From positions 1 through 33,095 of the IMG/VR virus record IMGVR_UViG_3300025009_000297: a stretch of DNA of 33,095 nt; one strand, given 5' to 3'. This DNA comes from a virus. This document shows, one piece after another, positions 5,119 to 17,162 of the stretch. Position 1 is the stretch's first letter. Each line of letters opens with the position of its first letter. The translations under genes were made by a program, and so were the position numbers. The notes below the pieces were generated by a model. That model was not told the DNA's origin. It saw only the letters and a program-made list of their open reading frames with translations, and made no database searches.

Positions 5119-6861
5119 ATGGAACCATTCGCCCTCAGACCATACCAGATTATCGCGCTCGAAGTAATGCATGGCGCATTGCAGGCGCAGGATATCCTGC
5201 TATTGCAGGCCGCTACCGGCGCAGGGAAGACCATCATCATCACAAGGATGATCAACCGGTATTTTCACGATCACCAGGGCCGCCGGTTCCTCATCCTGAT
5301 GCACAAGCGCGAGCTGGTCGAACAATTCATGTCGGCGTTCATCCGGTTCACCAATGTGCCGCCATCAGAAGTCGGCATTGTCTGCTCTGGGATGAATCGC
5401 CGGCAGCTTGACCGGCGCGTCACCATCGGCACCATCCAGACATTCGTCAACTGCCTGGATGAGTTCCCAGGGGCTGACCTGGTGGTGGTCGATGAAACGC
5501 ACCGGGTAGGGCATGCCAGCGAAAGCCAGTACCAGCAGATTCTGGACCGGCTGCGGGAGTATAAGCCGGACCACAAGGTAATTGGGGTCACGGCTACAGC
5601 CTACCGGCTGGGACACGGCATGATTTACGGCGACCGCTGCAAGCCTGGCCGGGTGAACTTCTTCCCGGATCTCACGCACAGGATTACCTACCAGGAACTG
5701 CGAGACAGCGGATACCTGATGCCGCTGGTAGGGAAAATCGCGGCGCCTGAAACACTGACCGCTGATCTGCTCAATGTGGACGTGAGCGGGGATTACAACC
5801 TGACGCAGCTCGGTGGCGTCATGGGCCGGCCGGTATACATCAAGGCAGCTGTTGAGGCATACCGGCAGTATGGCATGCACCATCAGCATGTCTGCGTGTT
5901 CGCCTGCACCATAGAGCACTGCGAGGCGTTGGTGGCTGAGTTCCGGGCGGACGGGTTTTCCGCTGTGCCGATTCACTCCAAGCTTTCATCCGTGGAGCGG
6001 ACGGCCAACCTGGCCGGCTGGCGCGCCGGAAAATATTCCATCGCAGTGTCCGTTAATATTTTGATCGAGGGTTTCGATTTCAAGGCGCTGTCCTGCCTGA
6101 TATTTTGCCGGCCGACGAAGAGCCCCACCGTTTTCATCCAGGCCATTGGCCGCATTCTCAGGATGGAGGCGGGCAAATCAGAGGCGCTGTTGATAGATCT
6201 GACCAACAATGCCGCCTCGTTCGGGTTTGACCTGGACAATCCGCGGTTCACCATCCCGTCCGGCAAGGATGGAGCCGGAGAGGCCCCGACCAAGGTGTGC
6301 GGCAACGAGCAGTGTCTGCTGCCGGTGCATGCCGCATTGCGCGTTTGCCCGCACTGCGGCTTTGAATTTCCGCTGGAGACCATTCCAGGCTGTGACGCCG
6401 TGGGCGAGATGAAGCATGTCGAGTTCAATGTTCCTGATCCGCCGGAATGGTACGAGGTCGAGAGCATGGAGATCGGCGAGTTCTGCAGCAAAAAAAGCGG
6501 GAAGATGATGGGCCGGATTGTGTTCGAGTACGGCGGGCTCTATCGCAAGAAGATCGTCAGCCAGTTTTTTTGTCTGCCTGATCAGTACAGTGGCTATGCC
6601 GTGGAGAGGTCGATGCTGACGTGGAGAAAATTTTGCGACGAGCCGTTTCCGCAGACGGTTGACGAGTTCACGTTTCTGCGCGATTTCATCCGGCAGCCGG
6701 TTGGCATTCTGCTGGACGAAAACGGCAAGTATGCAGAGATCAAGGATTTTGATTTTACCGGAGAGAAGATGGATGCGATCAGGATAGAGGATGTGCCGAC
6801 GACGTGCCAGTATGGGGCTGCATTTGATGGGATTCCCATAAGCGATGAGGTGCCGTTTTGA
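5119..6861 (+). CDS. SF2 DExH-box DNA helicase with zinc finger
   Basis: A 580-residue helicase. Superfamily 2 motifs appear in order: LRPYQ at 6-10, ATGAGKT (Walker A) at 32-38, DETH (motif II) at 125-128, TAT (motif III) at about 158-160, and QAIGRILR (motif VI) at 341-348. A zinc-ribbon-like set Cys394, Cys399, Cys410 and Cys413 follows the helicase core, then an uncharacterised C-terminal domain of about 160 residues. It resembles phage UvsW/RecG-like or UvrB-like DEAD helicases and probably remodels branched DNA during replication or recombination. The SD before ATG 5119 is weak (CACAGGATC). Its TGA at 6859-6861 overlaps the TTG start of the methyltransferase remnant. Confidence 0.88.
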   Translation: MEPFALRPYQIIALEVMHGALQAQDILLLQAATGAGKTIIITRMINRYFHDHQGRRFLILMHKRELVEQFMSAFIRFTNVPPSEVGIVCSGMNRRQLDRRVTIGTIQTFVNCLDEFPGADLVVVDETHRVGHASESQYQQILDRLREYKPDHKVIGVTATAYRLGHGMIYGDRCKPGRVNFFPDLTHRITYQELRDSGYLMPLVGKIAAPETLTADLLNVDVSGDYNLTQLGGVMGRPVYIKAAVEAYRQYGMHHQHVCVFACTIEHCEALVAEFRADGFSAVPIHSKLSSVERTANLAGWRAGKYSIAVSVNILIEGFDFKALSCLIFCRPTKSPTVFIQAIGRILRMEAGKSEALLIDLTNNAASFGFDLDNPRFTIPSGKDGAGEAPTKVCGNEQCLLPVHAALRVCPHCGFEFPLETIPGCDAVGEMKHVEFNVPDPPEWYEVESMEIGEFCSKKSGKMMGRIVFEYGGLYRKKIVSQFFCLPDQYSGYAVERSMLTWRKFCDEPFPQTVDEFTFLRDFIRQPVGILLDENGKYAEIKDFDFTGEKMDAIRIEDVPTTCQYGAAFDGIPISDEVPF

Positions 6862-7304
6862 AGGTGCTCGATATTTTCAGCGGCATTGGCGGTTTCTCTC
6901 TCGGGCTGACACGGGCCGGAATGAGAACCGTAGCTTTTTGCGAGATCGAAGAATATCCACGGTCTATATTGCGCAAGCACTGGCCTACAGTGCCAATTTT
7001 TGAGGATGTGAGGAACCTACATGCGGAAGATTTGCCCGAGGCAGTTGACCTTATTTGCGGGGAGGATACCCGTGCCAGCCGTTCAGTCTTGCCGGGCAGC
7101 GGAAAGGCAAGGACGATGACCGCCTCCAGGGTGGCTCGATTAAGGGCTCTTGGAAACGCCGTTGTCCCGCAGATACCGGAGCTGATCGGAAAAATTATCA
7201 TGGAGATCGAGAAAAGTGAACTGCATAAAGTGCCAGCGCATAACCGCATACGGTCCGCAGCCATTTTGCGGACACTACAACAAGATCATCCCAGGCGCCG
7301 GTGA
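6858..7304 (+). pseudogene. decayed DNA (cytosine-5) methyltransferase, frameshifted and internally deleted
   Basis: The N-terminus has the SAM-binding motif of C5 methyltransferases (LDIFSGIGGFSLGL), then the motif II Glu (FCEIEEYPR) and a VDLICG strand. At 7059-7064 the frame changes: the catalytic motif continues in the +2 frame as GGYPCQPFSLAGQ, covering about 7064-7123. Directly after KGKDDDR the original frame resumes with RVARLRALGNAVVPQIPELIG, the C-terminal motif IX/X. Everything between motif IV and motif IX (motifs V-VIII and the target-recognition domain, normally well over 100 residues) is gone. The 148-residue frame thus stays open but lacks the PCQ active site and cannot be a normal methyltransferase. 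Sequencing error could explain the frame change but not the deletion. Confidence 0.85.
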
Positions 7305-12093: not shown

Positions 12094-12282
12094 ATGAGCA
12101 AAAAAATGGCTGACAACAATGACATGCAGGACAAAAAACAGAAACTCGATGAGTATTTATCTGGTGTTTTTGAGCGTTGCTCGCTCAGTAATCACACCGG
12201 CAATGTCAAGCTGGATATGGCGTTTTTTCATGGTAAATTCCAGGCTGCGAAAGCCACTTGGGACGAAAATGTGGTGAAGTGA
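12094..12282 (+). CDS. small protein before the terminase genes, unknown
   Basis: A 62-residue protein, charged and helical (MADNNDMQDKKQKLDEYLSG), then SNHTGNVKLDMAFFHGKFQAAK near the end. It lacks a clear Shine-Dalgarno at either ATG 12094 or ATG 12106, so the start is uncertain. Its TGA overlaps the ATG of the small terminase (TGATG at 12280-12284). Small helical proteins in this position sometimes assist packaging, but nothing here demonstrates that. Confidence 0.5.
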   Translation: MSKKMADNNDMQDKKQKLDEYLSGVFERCSLSNHTGNVKLDMAFFHGKFQAAKATWDENVVK

Positions 12283-12827
12283 TGGCCGGAAAACGCAAGC
12301 TTACAAGAAAACAAGAGTTATTCGTCAAGGAATATTTGATCGATTTGAACGCCACACAGGCGGCGATTCGGGCCGGCTATTCCGTCAAAACTGCTCTGGC
12401 CATTGGCAGCGAGAACCTCTCGAAACCTGATATTGCCGCTGCAATCCAGGCCGCAATGGACTTAAGGTCGCTCAGGACCGAGATCACAGCGGACAGAGTG
12501 CTGAAAGAGATACAAAAGATCGCTTTTTCCGATATCAGAAATGTTTTCGACAAGGACGGTCGCTTGCTGCCGGTTGGCATGATGCCGCCGGAGGTTACCG
12601 CGTCCATATCTTCGATCAAAATCAGTACGAAGTCGTTGCCTGGCGGTGATGCGGTCGATGTCGAGCACATAGCAGAGTTGAAATTTTGGGACAAAAATTC
12701 TAGCCTGGAAAAGCTTGGCAAACATTTGAAGTTATTCAATGAAGTTGGAAGTAAGGAAAATCCGTTGACGGTCAATTCCACGCTCACCGATGAGCAGTTA
12801 ATTGCCATAGCCACAGGGAGAGCATGA
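12282..12827 (+). CDS. terS: terminase small subunit
   Basis: A 181-residue protein of the Terminase_2/XtmA type. The N-terminal DNA-binding part reads KLTRKQELFVKEYLIDLNATQAAIRAGYS, the typical helix-turn-helix region (K.FV.EYL.D.NAT.AAIRAGYS), followed by an oligomerization region that includes FSDIRNVFDKDGRLLP. It recognises the packaging site and recruits the large subunit. ATG 12282 overlaps the previous stop; TTG 12258 would add eight residues inside the upstream gene and is not favoured. The gene ends in an ATGA overlap with the large subunit. Confidence 0.9.
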   Translation: MAGKRKLTRKQELFVKEYLIDLNATQAAIRAGYSVKTALAIGSENLSKPDIAAAIQAAMDLRSLRTEITADRVLKEIQKIAFSDIRNVFDKDGRLLPVGMMPPEVTASISSIKISTKSLPGGDAVDVEHIAELKFWDKNSSLEKLGKHLKLFNEVGSKENPLTVNSTLTDEQLIAIATGRA

Positions 12828-14914
12828 GCGCACCGGCCCCAGCACTGACAAGAGAGCAAGCAGCGTCGATCCTACTGGAGCGCAGAAAGGCCAGGAAGGA
12901 TCTTGTCACGTTTGCCTCACGTGTCCCAGTGCCTGGATGTCCGGCAAGCGAAATAGACGACGACGCAAAGATACCGCTCATTGAAACTGAGCAGGCCGCT
13001 CACCACGTATTGATCCTGCGGGCTATGCAGAAGTGCATGGAGACACCGCACGGGCGCCTGATGATATTCGCCCCGCCAGGGAGTGCGAAAAGTACCTATG
13101 CCACCGTTGTCGCTCCATCGTGGAAGCTCGGGATAGAGGAAAAGTACAAGATCATCCTAGCCACATACGGCGACGACTTGGCCAGAAAGCACGGAAGACG
13201 CACAAGGCAGCTGCTCAAAGAGCCGGAGACAATCGGCATTCTGCAGACCGAGCTTTCCAAGGATTCCAGGGCTACCGATGAATTTGCGTTAACGAATGGC
13301 TCTGAGTACATCGCGTGCGGTATTCTCACCGGTGTGACAGGCAACAGGGCAAACGGGATCGTCATTGATGACCCCGTGAAAGGTCGCAAAGAGGCCGATT
13401 CTCCGGTCACGCAATCGAGCACTTTATCGGCTTATGAAGACGACCTGCTTACCAGGCTCATTCCTGGTGGGTGGGTGGTTATCATTCAAACCAGATGGAA
13501 CGAAAACGATCTCAGCGGTAAAATACTCCCGGAGACATGGGCAGGCGAGTCAGGAGACATCCTGTGCAGAGACGGTAATATCTGGACAGTGTTGTGTCTG
13601 CAGGCTGAATGCCAAACGAAGACCGACCCGCTTGGCCGGGAAATCGGCGAGATGCTCTGGAAGGAATGGTTCGATGATCGGCATTGGATGCAATTCAGGC
13701 TGAACCGCCGGACATGGTCCAGCCTATACCAGCAAGTGCCGTCTCCAGATGACGGTATCCTGTTCCGCAAGGCGGATATGACCAATTATGAAGTGCCGCC
13801 GGACAGGATGACAATCATAGGAGCCGCCGATCTCGCAGTCACTCCGGACAGCGGAGACTGGAGCGAGCCTGGCATTTTGGGTCTGGATGATAACGGTTCC
13901 GGATTTTTGCTGGATTGGTGGCGCGGGCAGGTTGGCCCTGAAGTGTGGGTGGAAAAAATCATCGACATGATGGAGAAATGGCGGCCATTGTGCTGGTTGA
14001 TGGAGACCGGGCAAATTCGCCGGGCAACGGAAGGAATGCTGCGCAGGAGAATGTCGGAAAGAAAAGTGAACTGCCGCATTGAATACCTGCCGGCCGTAAA
14101 CGACAAGGCCACCAATGCTCAGGAGATCATCGCGTTGTCCGGATCTGGGAAATTGTTCTGGCCGGCATACGCAGCTTGGCGAGCAGAACTCCAGAGGCAA
14201 GCGCTTGTTTTCCCAGCTGGATCACCTGATGACGGGGTTGATACACTCGGGCTGCTTGGGCGTGGCATTTCCATCGTAGCATCGATTCGACAGGTTTTCC
14301 CAGTTGACGAAGAGCTTATCTCAACGCCGCAGATAGAAATTCCTGGCAACTGGAAGCGCCTTGTAGGATGCGGAAAGTTTATGGCTTGGGTCTGGATTGC
14401 ATACGACGAAACAGCAAAAACTGTCTACATCTACGACGCTCTGAAAATGCGGGAATCATCCATACCTTTGCAGGCGGCTGCGGTTAACTCAAGAGGACAA
14501 TGGATACCAGTTTCATGGCCGCGAGACGGATACCAGGCAAAAAATGCCAGACACGGAGAACAGCTCGCCCAGCAGTACAGACAGCTAGGTGTAAACATGC
14601 GGCCGGAACATGCGCATTTCCAAGAATCTCCAACGGCAGGAGAGCGGAAGGAGTCGATGTACTCCTACGAGGCAACAGTCCAGGAAGTTTTATCCATGAT
14701 GCAAAGCGGAAGGGTGAAAGTATTTTCTCATCTGCATGACTGGTTCTCCGAATTCATGGCGTTTCACAGGAAGGATGGAAATATCATCAATGAGAATGAC
14801 GAACTGATGGCCGCGACAATGAACGCCATCATGGATTTACGGCACGCAATCACAGAGCCACGCAAAAACCAAGGGATTGATCACAATGCAAAACGCGACT
14901 GGTTTATCGGCTGA
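12824..14914 (+). CDS. terL: terminase large subunit with an extra C-terminal nuclease-like domain
   Basis: A 696-residue packaging motor; common TerLs are about 450-550. ATPase motifs: Walker A APPGSAKST at 83-91, Walker B IVIDDP at 179-184 and the coupling motif QTRWNENDL at 222-230. A complete RNase H-like nuclease follows with Asp336 (AADLAV), Glu394 (LMETGQ) and Asp469-Asp470 (SPDDGVDT). After a VFPVDEELISTP linker (about 490-508), residues 508-676 form a second domain resembling the C-terminal nuclease of F116-type TerLs: VYIYDALK, IPVSWPRDGYQ, GEQLAQQYRQLGVNM, GRVKVFSHLHDWF, NDELMAATMNAIMDLRHA. Where that family has a D.GWDHP-type catalytic segment this copy has only VGCGKFMAW. A fusion or recombination product is inferred. 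The portal gene begins inside its 3' end. Confidence 0.85.
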   Translation: MSAPAPALTREQAASILLERRKARKDLVTFASRVPVPGCPASEIDDDAKIPLIETEQAAHHVLILRAMQKCMETPHGRLMIFAPPGSAKSTYATVVAPSWKLGIEEKYKIILATYGDDLARKHGRRTRQLLKEPETIGILQTELSKDSRATDEFALTNGSEYIACGILTGVTGNRANGIVIDDPVKGRKEADSPVTQSSTLSAYEDDLLTRLIPGGWVVIIQTRWNENDLSGKILPETWAGESGDILCRDGNIWTVLCLQAECQTKTDPLGREIGEMLWKEWFDDRHWMQFRLNRRTWSSLYQQVPSPDDGILFRKADMTNYEVPPDRMTIIGAADLAVTPDSGDWSEPGILGLDDNGSGFLLDWWRGQVGPEVWVEKIIDMMEKWRPLCWLMETGQIRRATEGMLRRRMSERKVNCRIEYLPAVNDKATNAQEIIALSGSGKLFWPAYAAWRAELQRQALVFPAGSPDDGVDTLGLLGRGISIVASIRQVFPVDEELISTPQIEIPGNWKRLVGCGKFMAWVWIAYDETAKTVYIYDALKMRESSIPLQAAAVNSRGQWIPVSWPRDGYQAKNARHGEQLAQQYRQLGVNMRPEHAHFQESPTAGERKESMYSYEATVQEVLSMMQSGRVKVFSHLHDWFSEFMAFHRKDGNIINENDELMAATMNAIMDLRHAITEPRKNQGIDHNAKRDWFIG

Positions 14915-17162
14915 GATCGTAAAGCGCAACGACAGCGGCATGTCTCTGGCAACGCTGGAGGATATGCTGTCTGATCTGCGCTACCAGCCGCCCTGGCGTG
15001 AAGAGGCCGATGTCTGCGACGATTACTACGATGCCCACCAGCTGAAAACGGATCGCCTGCAGAAGATGGAGGCGCTCGGCATCCCGCCGCTGGTCACCAA
15101 CCTGATTGCCCCGGTCATCAACTCCCAGCTCGGCATGGAAGCCAAGTCGCGAACCGATTGGCGAGTAACCGAAGAGGACGAAGCCGACGAAGTACCGGAA
15201 GATGTGCTGCTCGCTCTCAATGCCAGGCTGAACAAGGTAGAACGTGAATCCCGTGCTGACCGCGCCATCTCGGATGCCTACGCAGCACAGCTGAAGTCCG
15301 GTGTCGGTTGGGCAGAGGTTTCCCGTAATTCGGATGTCATGGCCTATCCGTACCGGGTTGTCGACGTGGACCGCAACGAGATGTGGTGGGACTGGAGGGC
15401 GAAACAGCCGGACCTGTCCGACGCCCGCTACTTGATTCGCAAGCGCCGCTTTGATCAGGACGTGCTCACCGCCATGATGCCGGAGCATGCGGAGCTGATC
15501 AAGTGGGCAGTGACCGACCGTTTCAAGACATGGCAGTGGGAGACACTCGCGCAGCTCAACAACAGCACCGACCTCGCCTATGCCGCCCACCTGGAGCGCG
15601 TCACCAACCTGGATGAAAACGAGTGGCGCGACGCGGAACGCAAGCGGGCCACGGTCTTCGAAGTCTGGTACAGGCAGTGGAAGCGCGGGCCGGTCCTCTA
15701 CCTTCCCAATGGGCGCATTGTCCCGTTTGACCGGCAGAATCCGCGCCATGTGGCCGCTGTTCGACAGGGCATGATTATCCCGCAGCATAAGGTTTTCTCT
15801 TCCCTGCGGGTGGCATTTTTCTTGGGCTGTCACAGGCTCTATGACCAGCCGACGCCGTACAAACACCAGCATTTCCCGTATGTGCCGTTCTTTGGCTACC
15901 GGGAGTCACGGACCGGCATCAGGTACGGCATGATCCGCAACATGATTTCCCCGCAGAATGTGGTGAACTCGGCTGACGCCAAGATGCATTGGTTGCTCAA
16001 CGCCAAGCGGATTATTGCGGATTCCGACGCCATTGACATGCAGTACAACACCTGGAAGCAGGTGCAGGAACAGGTAGCGAGCCCGAATGCGGTTGTGCTG
16101 CTGGACCCGAATAAGCCGAATGCGCGATTCAAGGTCGAGACAGATTTTCAGCTAAGCGCCCAACAGTTCAGTCGCCGCCAGCAGGCCGCCGCAGATATCG
16201 AGGCCGCCGCCGGCGTCTACAAGGCCGCTCTCGGCAAAGAGGGTGCCGCCACATCAGGCGTCGGCATCGACAGCCTGATCGAGCAGTCGAACATCATGAT
16301 GGCTGAGATCAACGACAATTACTCATTCTCCAGGCGCCAGGTAGGCGAGCTGGTTTTTTCGCTGGTATTCGAAGACATGATCGGCAAGGAGATGAAAATA
16401 GCCTTCAAGGAAAAGGGCAAGAAGCGGATTGTCCACTTGAACCGCAAAGCGGTCAACGAGCAAGGCCAAGAGGTTGTCGAAAACGATATCTCAGCGATCA
16501 GGACCAAAGTGGCGCTGTCCGACGTGCCGTCCACAGCCTCATTCAAGTCGCAGCAGCTGCGGATTGTCTCCGAGGTGGCCAAGTCGTTGCCGCCGCAGAT
16601 GCAGGCGCTGCTGGTCCCGGCCATGGTCATGCTGACCGATATGCCTGATAAAGAGGACACGGCGGAAGCCATCCGCAAGCTGGCCGGGATCACCCCGAAG
16701 ATGACCGACGAAGAGCAGGCCGCAGCCGATGAGGCCAAGGCCAAGGCACAGGAAGTCATCTCGGAGCTGGAGCGACGGACCGCAGAGGCCAATGTCAAGC
16801 TGCTGGAGAACAAGGTTGCGCAGCTCGAACAGCAAAACCGTAAGATCGGCGCGGAGCGTCTGGTGAAGATGGTTGAGGCCCTCTACAGCGCGATGCAGGC
16901 CGGGCAGATTGTGGCCACCGTGCCGCAAGTCGCTCCGATTGCCGACGAACTCTTGAAAGGAGCTGGATATGATGACCAGGACGGCGGGGATCTTCCGCAG
17001 ATTGATAATGGTATGCAGGCTCAATCTGGAGATGTTCAGGCTGTTTCTGCGCTGCCGCAGCCGGAATCACCGGTAGAAGGCGCGCAGGCTGGGATTGAGA
17101 CCATGGAAAATGATGGGGTTTTAAACAGTTCGTCCGGTCCTGACGTACAGGACTTGCAATAA
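14886..17162 (+). CDS. portal protein (P22/F116-like podovirus type)
   Basis: A 758-residue portal protein. ATG 14886 is preferred because AAGGG lies about 10 bases upstream; TTG 14877 is an alternative giving 761 residues. The N-terminus has WREEADVCDDYYDAHQL and IPPLVTNLIAPVINSQLGMEAKSRTDW, then a stem region with DRAISDAYAAQLKSGVGWAEV and VVDVDRNEMWWDW, all typical of the podoviral portal family. The C-terminal 200 residues are helical and coiled-coil-like with Glu, Gln and Ala (AEANVKLLENKVAQLEQQNRK), possibly a barrel, and the tail end is low-complexity acidic. Twelve copies would form the packaging and ejection channel. It overlaps TerL by 29 bp. Confidence 0.88.
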   Translation: MQNATGLSAEIVKRNDSGMSLATLEDMLSDLRYQPPWREEADVCDDYYDAHQLKTDRLQKMEALGIPPLVTNLIAPVINSQLGMEAKSRTDWRVTEEDEADEVPEDVLLALNARLNKVERESRADRAISDAYAAQLKSGVGWAEVSRNSDVMAYPYRVVDVDRNEMWWDWRAKQPDLSDARYLIRKRRFDQDVLTAMMPEHAELIKWAVTDRFKTWQWETLAQLNNSTDLAYAAHLERVTNLDENEWRDAERKRATVFEVWYRQWKRGPVLYLPNGRIVPFDRQNPRHVAAVRQGMIIPQHKVFSSLRVAFFLGCHRLYDQPTPYKHQHFPYVPFFGYRESRTGIRYGMIRNMISPQNVVNSADAKMHWLLNAKRIIADSDAIDMQYNTWKQVQEQVASPNAVVLLDPNKPNARFKVETDFQLSAQQFSRRQQAAADIEAAAGVYKAALGKEGAATSGVGIDSLIEQSNIMMAEINDNYSFSRRQVGELVFSLVFEDMIGKEMKIAFKEKGKKRIVHLNRKAVNEQGQEVVENDISAIRTKVALSDVPSTASFKSQQLRIVSEVAKSLPPQMQALLVPAMVMLTDMPDKEDTAEAIRKLAGITPKMTDEEQAAADEAKAKAQEVISELERRTAEANVKLLENKVAQLEQQNRKIGAERLVKMVEALYSAMQAGQIVATVPQVAPIADELLKGAGYDDQDGGDLPQIDNGMQAQSGDVQAVSALPQPESPVEGAQAGIETMENDGVLNSSSGPDVQDLQ

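Follow-up and report, generated by a model that had tools for sequence, protein, structure and literature searches.

The window, which is the whole 33,095-nucleotide stretch of viral DNA analysed here (IMG/VR record IMGVR_UViG_3300025009_000297), carries a packaging region in which the genes for the small terminase subunit (TerS), the large terminase subunit (TerL) and the portal protein follow one another on the same strand, each overlapping the next. The TerL gene is unusual in its length, and its product can be divided into an incoming ATPase, an incoming nuclease and a second nuclease domain left over from another terminase. The features on which the rest of this account depends are the following.

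12258..12827, + strand: TerS (terminase small subunit), phrog_51 (E 2.6e-38), with a 4-nt overlap with the TerL start
12824..14914, + strand: chimeric TerL, 696 aa, one open frame with no stops
12824..13783, + strand: ATPase domain of the incoming TerL, residues 1-320, phrog_38; Walker A 84-91, Walker B 179-184
13784..14266, + strand: RNase H-like nuclease domain of the incoming TerL, residues 321-481, intact-looking; D336, E394, D469/D470/D473
14264..14296, + strand: TerL junction, from the aligned flanks of both families; (R/K)G near here in both
14270..14878, + strand: leftover P22 gp2-type nuclease domain, residues 483-685, from Pfam, 4dkw and the model
14354..14389, + strand: damaged first catalytic strand, residues 511-522, KRLVGC followed by GKFMAW, from the alignment of 68 relatives
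14525..14527, + strand: second acid of the leftover domain, D568 (WPRDG), kept; D in 69/69 relatives
14798..14803, + strand: third acid pair of the leftover domain, D659-E660; D-D in 69/69 relatives
14871..14876, + strand: AAGGGA within the leftover domain, judged from the letters to be the likely portal ribosome-binding site
14879..14911, + strand: C-terminal tail of TerL, DHNAKRDWFIG, with the (D/N)W(R/F) motif, from the TerL tail comparison
14886..17162, + strand: portal protein, F116-like, phrog_156 (E 2.7e-151); its start overlaps the TerL end by 29 nt

An intein or a frameshift was considered as the source of the extra length and rejected, since the N-terminal part is uninterrupted, the extra residues are C-terminal and in a single frame, and two TerLs that are longer for such a reason, L028 and L211, look different. 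The first of these (L028, 5962-8451) is a phrog_38-type TerL of 829 aa with an insertion near Walker A that has Hint_2 and LAGLIDADG matches and is probably an intein with a homing endonuclease. The second (L211, 3177-5633, from the same phage as L303/L304) is an 818-aa P22-type TerL into which ~300 residues are inserted at the Walker A region; the insertion looks like an intein (C at its start, HHN at its end before SGKS), and Pfam finds no Hint domain in it. In that phage a gene of 483 aa, which weakly matches GDSL lipases, lies between TerL and portal. Elsewhere in the window, a 148-aa open reading frame (6858-7304) matches only the first 67 of the 324 positions of the C-5 cytosine methylase family and looks like a truncated methylase gene.

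Two unrelated terminase families in one reading frame

The sequence-only reading of this DNA took residues 1-490 to be a complete TerL, and the comparison with relatives bears this out. Residues 1-489 match phrog_38 TerL (E 5e-81) and, among 50 aligned sequences, PPGSAKS (84-90), D182/D183, D336 and D469 are invariant and E394 and D470 are at least 90% conserved. An AF2 model of this half (mean pLDDT 84.6, pTM 0.64) was matched by Foldseek to the full-length terminases T4 gp17, HK97 and Sf6 gp2. The N-terminal part therefore has the Walker A/B ATPase and the RNase H-like nuclease with acidic residues that characterize the phrog_38 type, and the protein departs from that type in not ending a few tens of residues past the nuclease. 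TerLs on IMG/VR contigs that are 63-74% identical to this part (e.g. L002, L003 and L132) do end soon past the aligned region, the closest at 32 residues and the others at ~20-50, and the N-terminal relatives in IMG/VR, GTDB and phage records are without a second nuclease domain.

The domain that follows belongs elsewhere. Residues 522-670 match Pfam Terminase_6C (E 2e-17) from profile position 17 of 155, so that the first strand is left unmatched, and the domain finds the P22 gp2 nuclease (PDB 4dkw) by phmmer at E 6.6e-20. Its AF2 model, built with the help of an alignment of 69 relatives, has a pLDDT of 85.7 and superposes on 4dkw with Z 26.6 and 1.8 Å over 186 residues, which provides the structural match to RNase H-like TerL nucleases that had been expected of residues 508-676. 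Folding was confined to the two halves, each taken separately, because joint alignments put second-domain sequences on the first nuclease. In sequence and fold the leftover domain is thus of the P22 gp2 type (4dkw, Terminase_6C), from which it deviates in two respects: the catalytic Asp that ends strand 1 (P22 Asp321) is missing, and its own P22-type ATPase has been replaced by a phrog_38-type TerL. An earlier assignment of the domain to the F116 type had to be abandoned; F116 TerL (543 aa) and its kin match it at best with blastp E 0.28-0.9 and off-register, in contrast to P22 gp2-type TerLs, which match at E 1e-34 to 1e-45. Its identity to L290, L291 and L210 is 58-60%.

The homology of the N-terminal part is firm to G481 (nt 14266) and that of the P22-type part from V491-F492-P493 (nt ~14294). 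At the crossover the letters are GLLGRG in the N-terminal family and (A/T/S)KGIP in the P22-type one, and this short common (R/K)G stretch is compatible, as far as the letters go, with illegitimate recombination at that point.

The portal gene is F116-like, as had been read from the sequence: over 90% of its length it is 38% identical to that of F116 (E 3e-118), a similarity that spans most of the protein, and it is 44% identical to the portal of CF418P1 and 65% to that of L290. Its closest relatives (L290, L291, L292, L295, L297, L299, L302 and L303) have a P22-type TerL upstream, mostly abutting or overlapping the portal; the comparison of same-portal phages proposed with the sequence-only reading accordingly finds an intact P22-type TerL in that position as the norm of the clade. 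Relatives of the leftover domain, above all L290, L291, L292, L295, L297, L299 and L302, have a P22-type ATPase ahead of that domain and, directly after it, a portal 52-65% identical to that of the window; their major capsid proteins, where the contig reaches, are 73-77% identical to that of the window. The resident order was therefore P22-type TerL, then portal.

Both halves in one protein were found in none of the fetched loci and in none of 399 bacterial genomes, from the order of the Burkholderiales MAG that holds a 68% N-terminal relative, in which each match covered a single half. The sequence-only reading had named, as evidence against its own proposal, an ancestral family in which TerLs of ~700 residues keep the second site intact; searches with the whole TerL, each half and the portal as queries found no such family in IMG/VR, GTDB contigs, phage records or the 399 genomes. 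Since the N-terminal relatives stop where they do, the resident TerL is P22-type and no locus has both parts, a foreign TerL has replaced the resident ATPase. These observations show that this TerL arose by recombination between two unrelated TerL families: a complete phrog_38-type TerL, its own tail gone, occupies the place of the resident P22 gp2-type ATPase. The sequence-only reading was thus right in outline that the ancestral ATPase had been exchanged and the old nuclease had stayed behind; the crossover, which it put at nt 14290-14350, lies instead at ~14264-14296. The further proposal that a terS-terL pair arrived together is unproven, and TerS may be resident or incoming: its family accompanies all three TerL types met in this analysis, its nearest relative (51%) comes from L301, a member of the resident portal clade, and the next (42%) stands beside an N-terminal-type TerL (L133).

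Damage to the second active site

All 68 relatives that cover the first strand carry the motif D-(F/I/Y)-G-x-x-H-P, which in the near relative L210 reads RLVGCDFGWDHPAAFVW. The window passes from C516 to G517-K518-F519 with four residues missing (GC----GKF in the alignment); these residues, including the catalytic Asp, are lost between nt 14371 and 14372, and the conserved H and P are replaced. The loss of the first catalytic Asp, already noticed from the sequence, is therefore real when set against relatives that all keep D, G, H and P. Its P22 equivalent, Asp321, is reported to be critical to nuclease activity (PMC11728703). H648 is kept, and E660, beside the retained D659, is D in 69/69 relatives. 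With a predicted nuclease fold and catalytic residues lost (the first Asp), the domain has the traits of a vestigial TerL nuclease.

How far the rest of the domain is still constrained bears on whether it is decaying. Of 40 sites that are invariant in the other full-length members compared, 9 are changed in the leftover domain, and the first strand accounts for five of these; no intact relative has more than 5/36 changed. Outside that strand its constraint is near that of the least conserved intact relative. Relative to the identity predicted from the portal, the leftover shows a mean residual of -7 points, the largest deficit among 19. These values fit a domain that has lost catalysis with its fold still mostly maintained, or else one in which the loss is recent.

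Another explanation is that this part of the gene is a recombination scar without function, a trapped P22-type domain that is decaying, with part of its DNA constrained only by the start of the portal gene and its ribosome-binding site. The broken first strand, the number of changed invariant sites, which exceeds that of any intact relative, and a divergence faster than that of the portal speak for it, as does the position of the portal start and its likely ribosome-binding site inside the leftover. We nevertheless consider it unlikely, since the frame has stayed open over 214 codons, most of the invariant positions, D568, D659 and H648 among them, are unchanged, 4 of ~35 invariant sites are changed outside the first strand, and the fold is confidently predicted, although with the help of the alignment. 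A further argument against a scar comes from the tails discussed below.

An internal ATG (M520) lies behind GGAAAG at 14370-14383 of the window and could start a separate product of 177 residues, which would be the second domain without its first strand.

TerL tails and the portal

A (D/N/G/S)W(R/F/Y) motif is present within the last 9 residues of 22/23 P22-type TerLs with an F116-like portal and of 0/50 with other portals, counts that are not independent because the portal-type label changes only ~3 times on the nuclease tree. The motif also occurs in 36/36 F116-type TerLs (one DWY counted), and a third, phrog_2-like TerL type, found in L301 (2014-3480) and L296 (contig start), ends in DWFC. 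Three unrelated TerL families thus agree on a (D/N)W(R/F)-like tail when the portal is F116-like. The DW(R/F) tail is also kept in F116-portal phages without an overlap between the TerL and portal genes, F116 among them, and this retention argues against the decaying scar described above.

Two further cases lie within the portal clade of the window. L294 (TerL end 4023) and L300 (TerL end 3981) have F116-type TerLs with the resident tail at their end: the last ~15 residues (KADKGLDYGARSDWF in L294) are those of the clade. Over the last 45 nt, these two genes share 62-82% identity with four of the five P22-type tails of the clade that were compared, 24-29% with the remaining one (L291, in which two extra codons shift the end) and 16-36% with F116-type tails. 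The tail DNA of L301 has no such excess of identity, and only the motif is common. The TerL of the window has likewise lost the tail of the incoming protein and ends in the resident KRDWFIG. Judging from these alignments, TerL tails follow the portal and not the TerL family.

N-terminal-type TerLs that stand with distantly related portals (L147, L148, L150, L153, L160 and L170) have tails of the form W-K-(T/V/A)-A, e.g. DWKTA, possibly another portal-specific tail.

The C-terminal end of TerL has been connected with docking in other phages. A C-terminal tether of lambda TerL (gpA) is reported to bind the portal (Yeo and Feiss 1995, as cited in PMC9026076), C-terminal segments have been linked to portal or prohead docking in T4 and, as a proposal, in D6E (PMC5727402), and in T3, too, docking on the portal or prohead is assigned to the TerL C-terminus. 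From this known docking and the swaps that keep the tail, we infer that the swaps which succeed are those that retain the resident tail. The portal-contact role that had been suggested for the leftover domain as a possibility gains support from the tails shared across TerL families with this portal.

The swaps also bear on whether the dead domain might have a motor role of its own, as a DNA-binding or spacer module, beyond carrying the tail. The fold is apparently kept with the active site lost, and the C-terminal domain of phi29 gp16 binds nucleic acid after nuclease loss (PMC7672431). Yet L294, L300 and L301 keep only the short resident tail, without a second nuclease domain, so that this portal type can do without it, and such a role seems rather improbable.

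The fusion is known from one metagenomic contig (33 kb), and no second genome has it. That it was created by assembly, by joining two phages at ~nt 14265-14296, is very improbable: this is a single contig and its upstream replication genes gave no informative matches to either the resident clade or the donor group, so that synteny cannot vouch for the join, but the join is in frame and at a domain border, the Asp is lost here only (68/68 keep it), a loss that one would expect in a copy made redundant by fusion but not in some random fragment, and third-position GC is similar on both sides (0.61-0.63 vs 0.54; TerS 0.57).

Retention of the extra domain and comparison with known systems

A foreign TerL has replaced the resident ATPase while the resident nuclease domain and tail stayed in frame, and this leftover has probably been retained for its portal-docking end, the nuclease ahead of that end being redundant and inactivated. 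According to this proposal, the incoming ATPase and first nuclease would carry out packaging and cutting, and the leftover domain would no longer cut. It would be kept since its end, DHNAKRDWFIG, may serve as the docking tail matched to the resident portal, and presumably also because the same DNA carries the translation signals of the portal gene (ribosome-binding site and start). The window would have retained the whole nuclease domain along with the tail and lost the redundant active site afterwards, and the loss of the first Asp may have rid the motor of a second nuclease that was redundant and possibly harmful. It is in keeping with this sequence of events that the Asp is missing only from the copy joined to another nuclease.

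In this clade the DNA that encodes the tail also overlaps the translation signals of the portal (its ribosome-binding site and start), so that retention could reflect portal expression and not docking, and within the clade the two reasons are not separable. The leftover's divergence beyond what the portal predicts (-7 points) also fits slow decay. A more ambitious, tentative proposal is that of a three-domain motor (ATPase, working nuclease and dead P22-type nuclease) in which the last domain, placed between the working nuclease and the portal, would act as a docking and spacing module, the TerL having been retargeted to a foreign portal by gaining the resident C-terminal end.

TerL mosaicism and vestigial TerL nucleases are both known, and the fusion is a variant of these kinds; a TerL that carries two nuclease domains was not found described in the literature searched, which took in few subscription papers. 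How the terminase of one phage comes to suit the capsid of another is a standing question in phage mosaicism, and the clade of the window offers natural experiments on it, with three unrelated TerL types and one fusion, one portal and the same short tail. The rule that they suggest, with portal specificity residing in the last ~10-15 TerL residues, is testable. The leftover domain would be a second case, besides phi29, of a TerL nuclease domain that outlasts its active site.

Each part of the protein has its counterpart in known phages. Residues 1-481 resemble the TerLs of Pseudanabaena phage Pan3 and Microcystis phage Mwe-JY13 (47-50% identity, with the same motor and nuclease motifs), which differ in having a tail of their own, in ending ~35-40 residues past the aligned part and in having no second nuclease domain. 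Residues ~491-680 resemble P22 gp2 (4dkw) and the TerLs of Baldr, KIT05, CF418P1, L290 and L291 (34-60% identity, same fold), from which the window differs by the absence of the first-strand Asp (P22 Asp321) and the following H and P and by the replaced ATPase. The F116-type TerL (543 aa) stands beside the same portal type and has the DW(R/F) tail in common with the window TerL, although it has no sequence match to either half. As in lambda gpA, the C-terminal end of TerL would dock on the portal, which fits the exchange of tails between TerLs; in the window, by contrast with lambda, docking is suggested by natural swaps and tail conservation, and a whole nuclease domain has been retained with the tail. 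The C-terminal domain of phi29 gp16, a vestigial nuclease that has kept nucleic-acid binding and lost nuclease activity (PMC7672431), is like the leftover a TerL-type RNase H-like domain that has lost its first-strand Asp and been kept in a packaging ATPase (PMC7672431). Gp16 has a single such domain and packages unit-length DNA, whereas in the window an intact-looking nuclease precedes the dead one, which, unlike that of gp16, keeps two of its catalytic acids.
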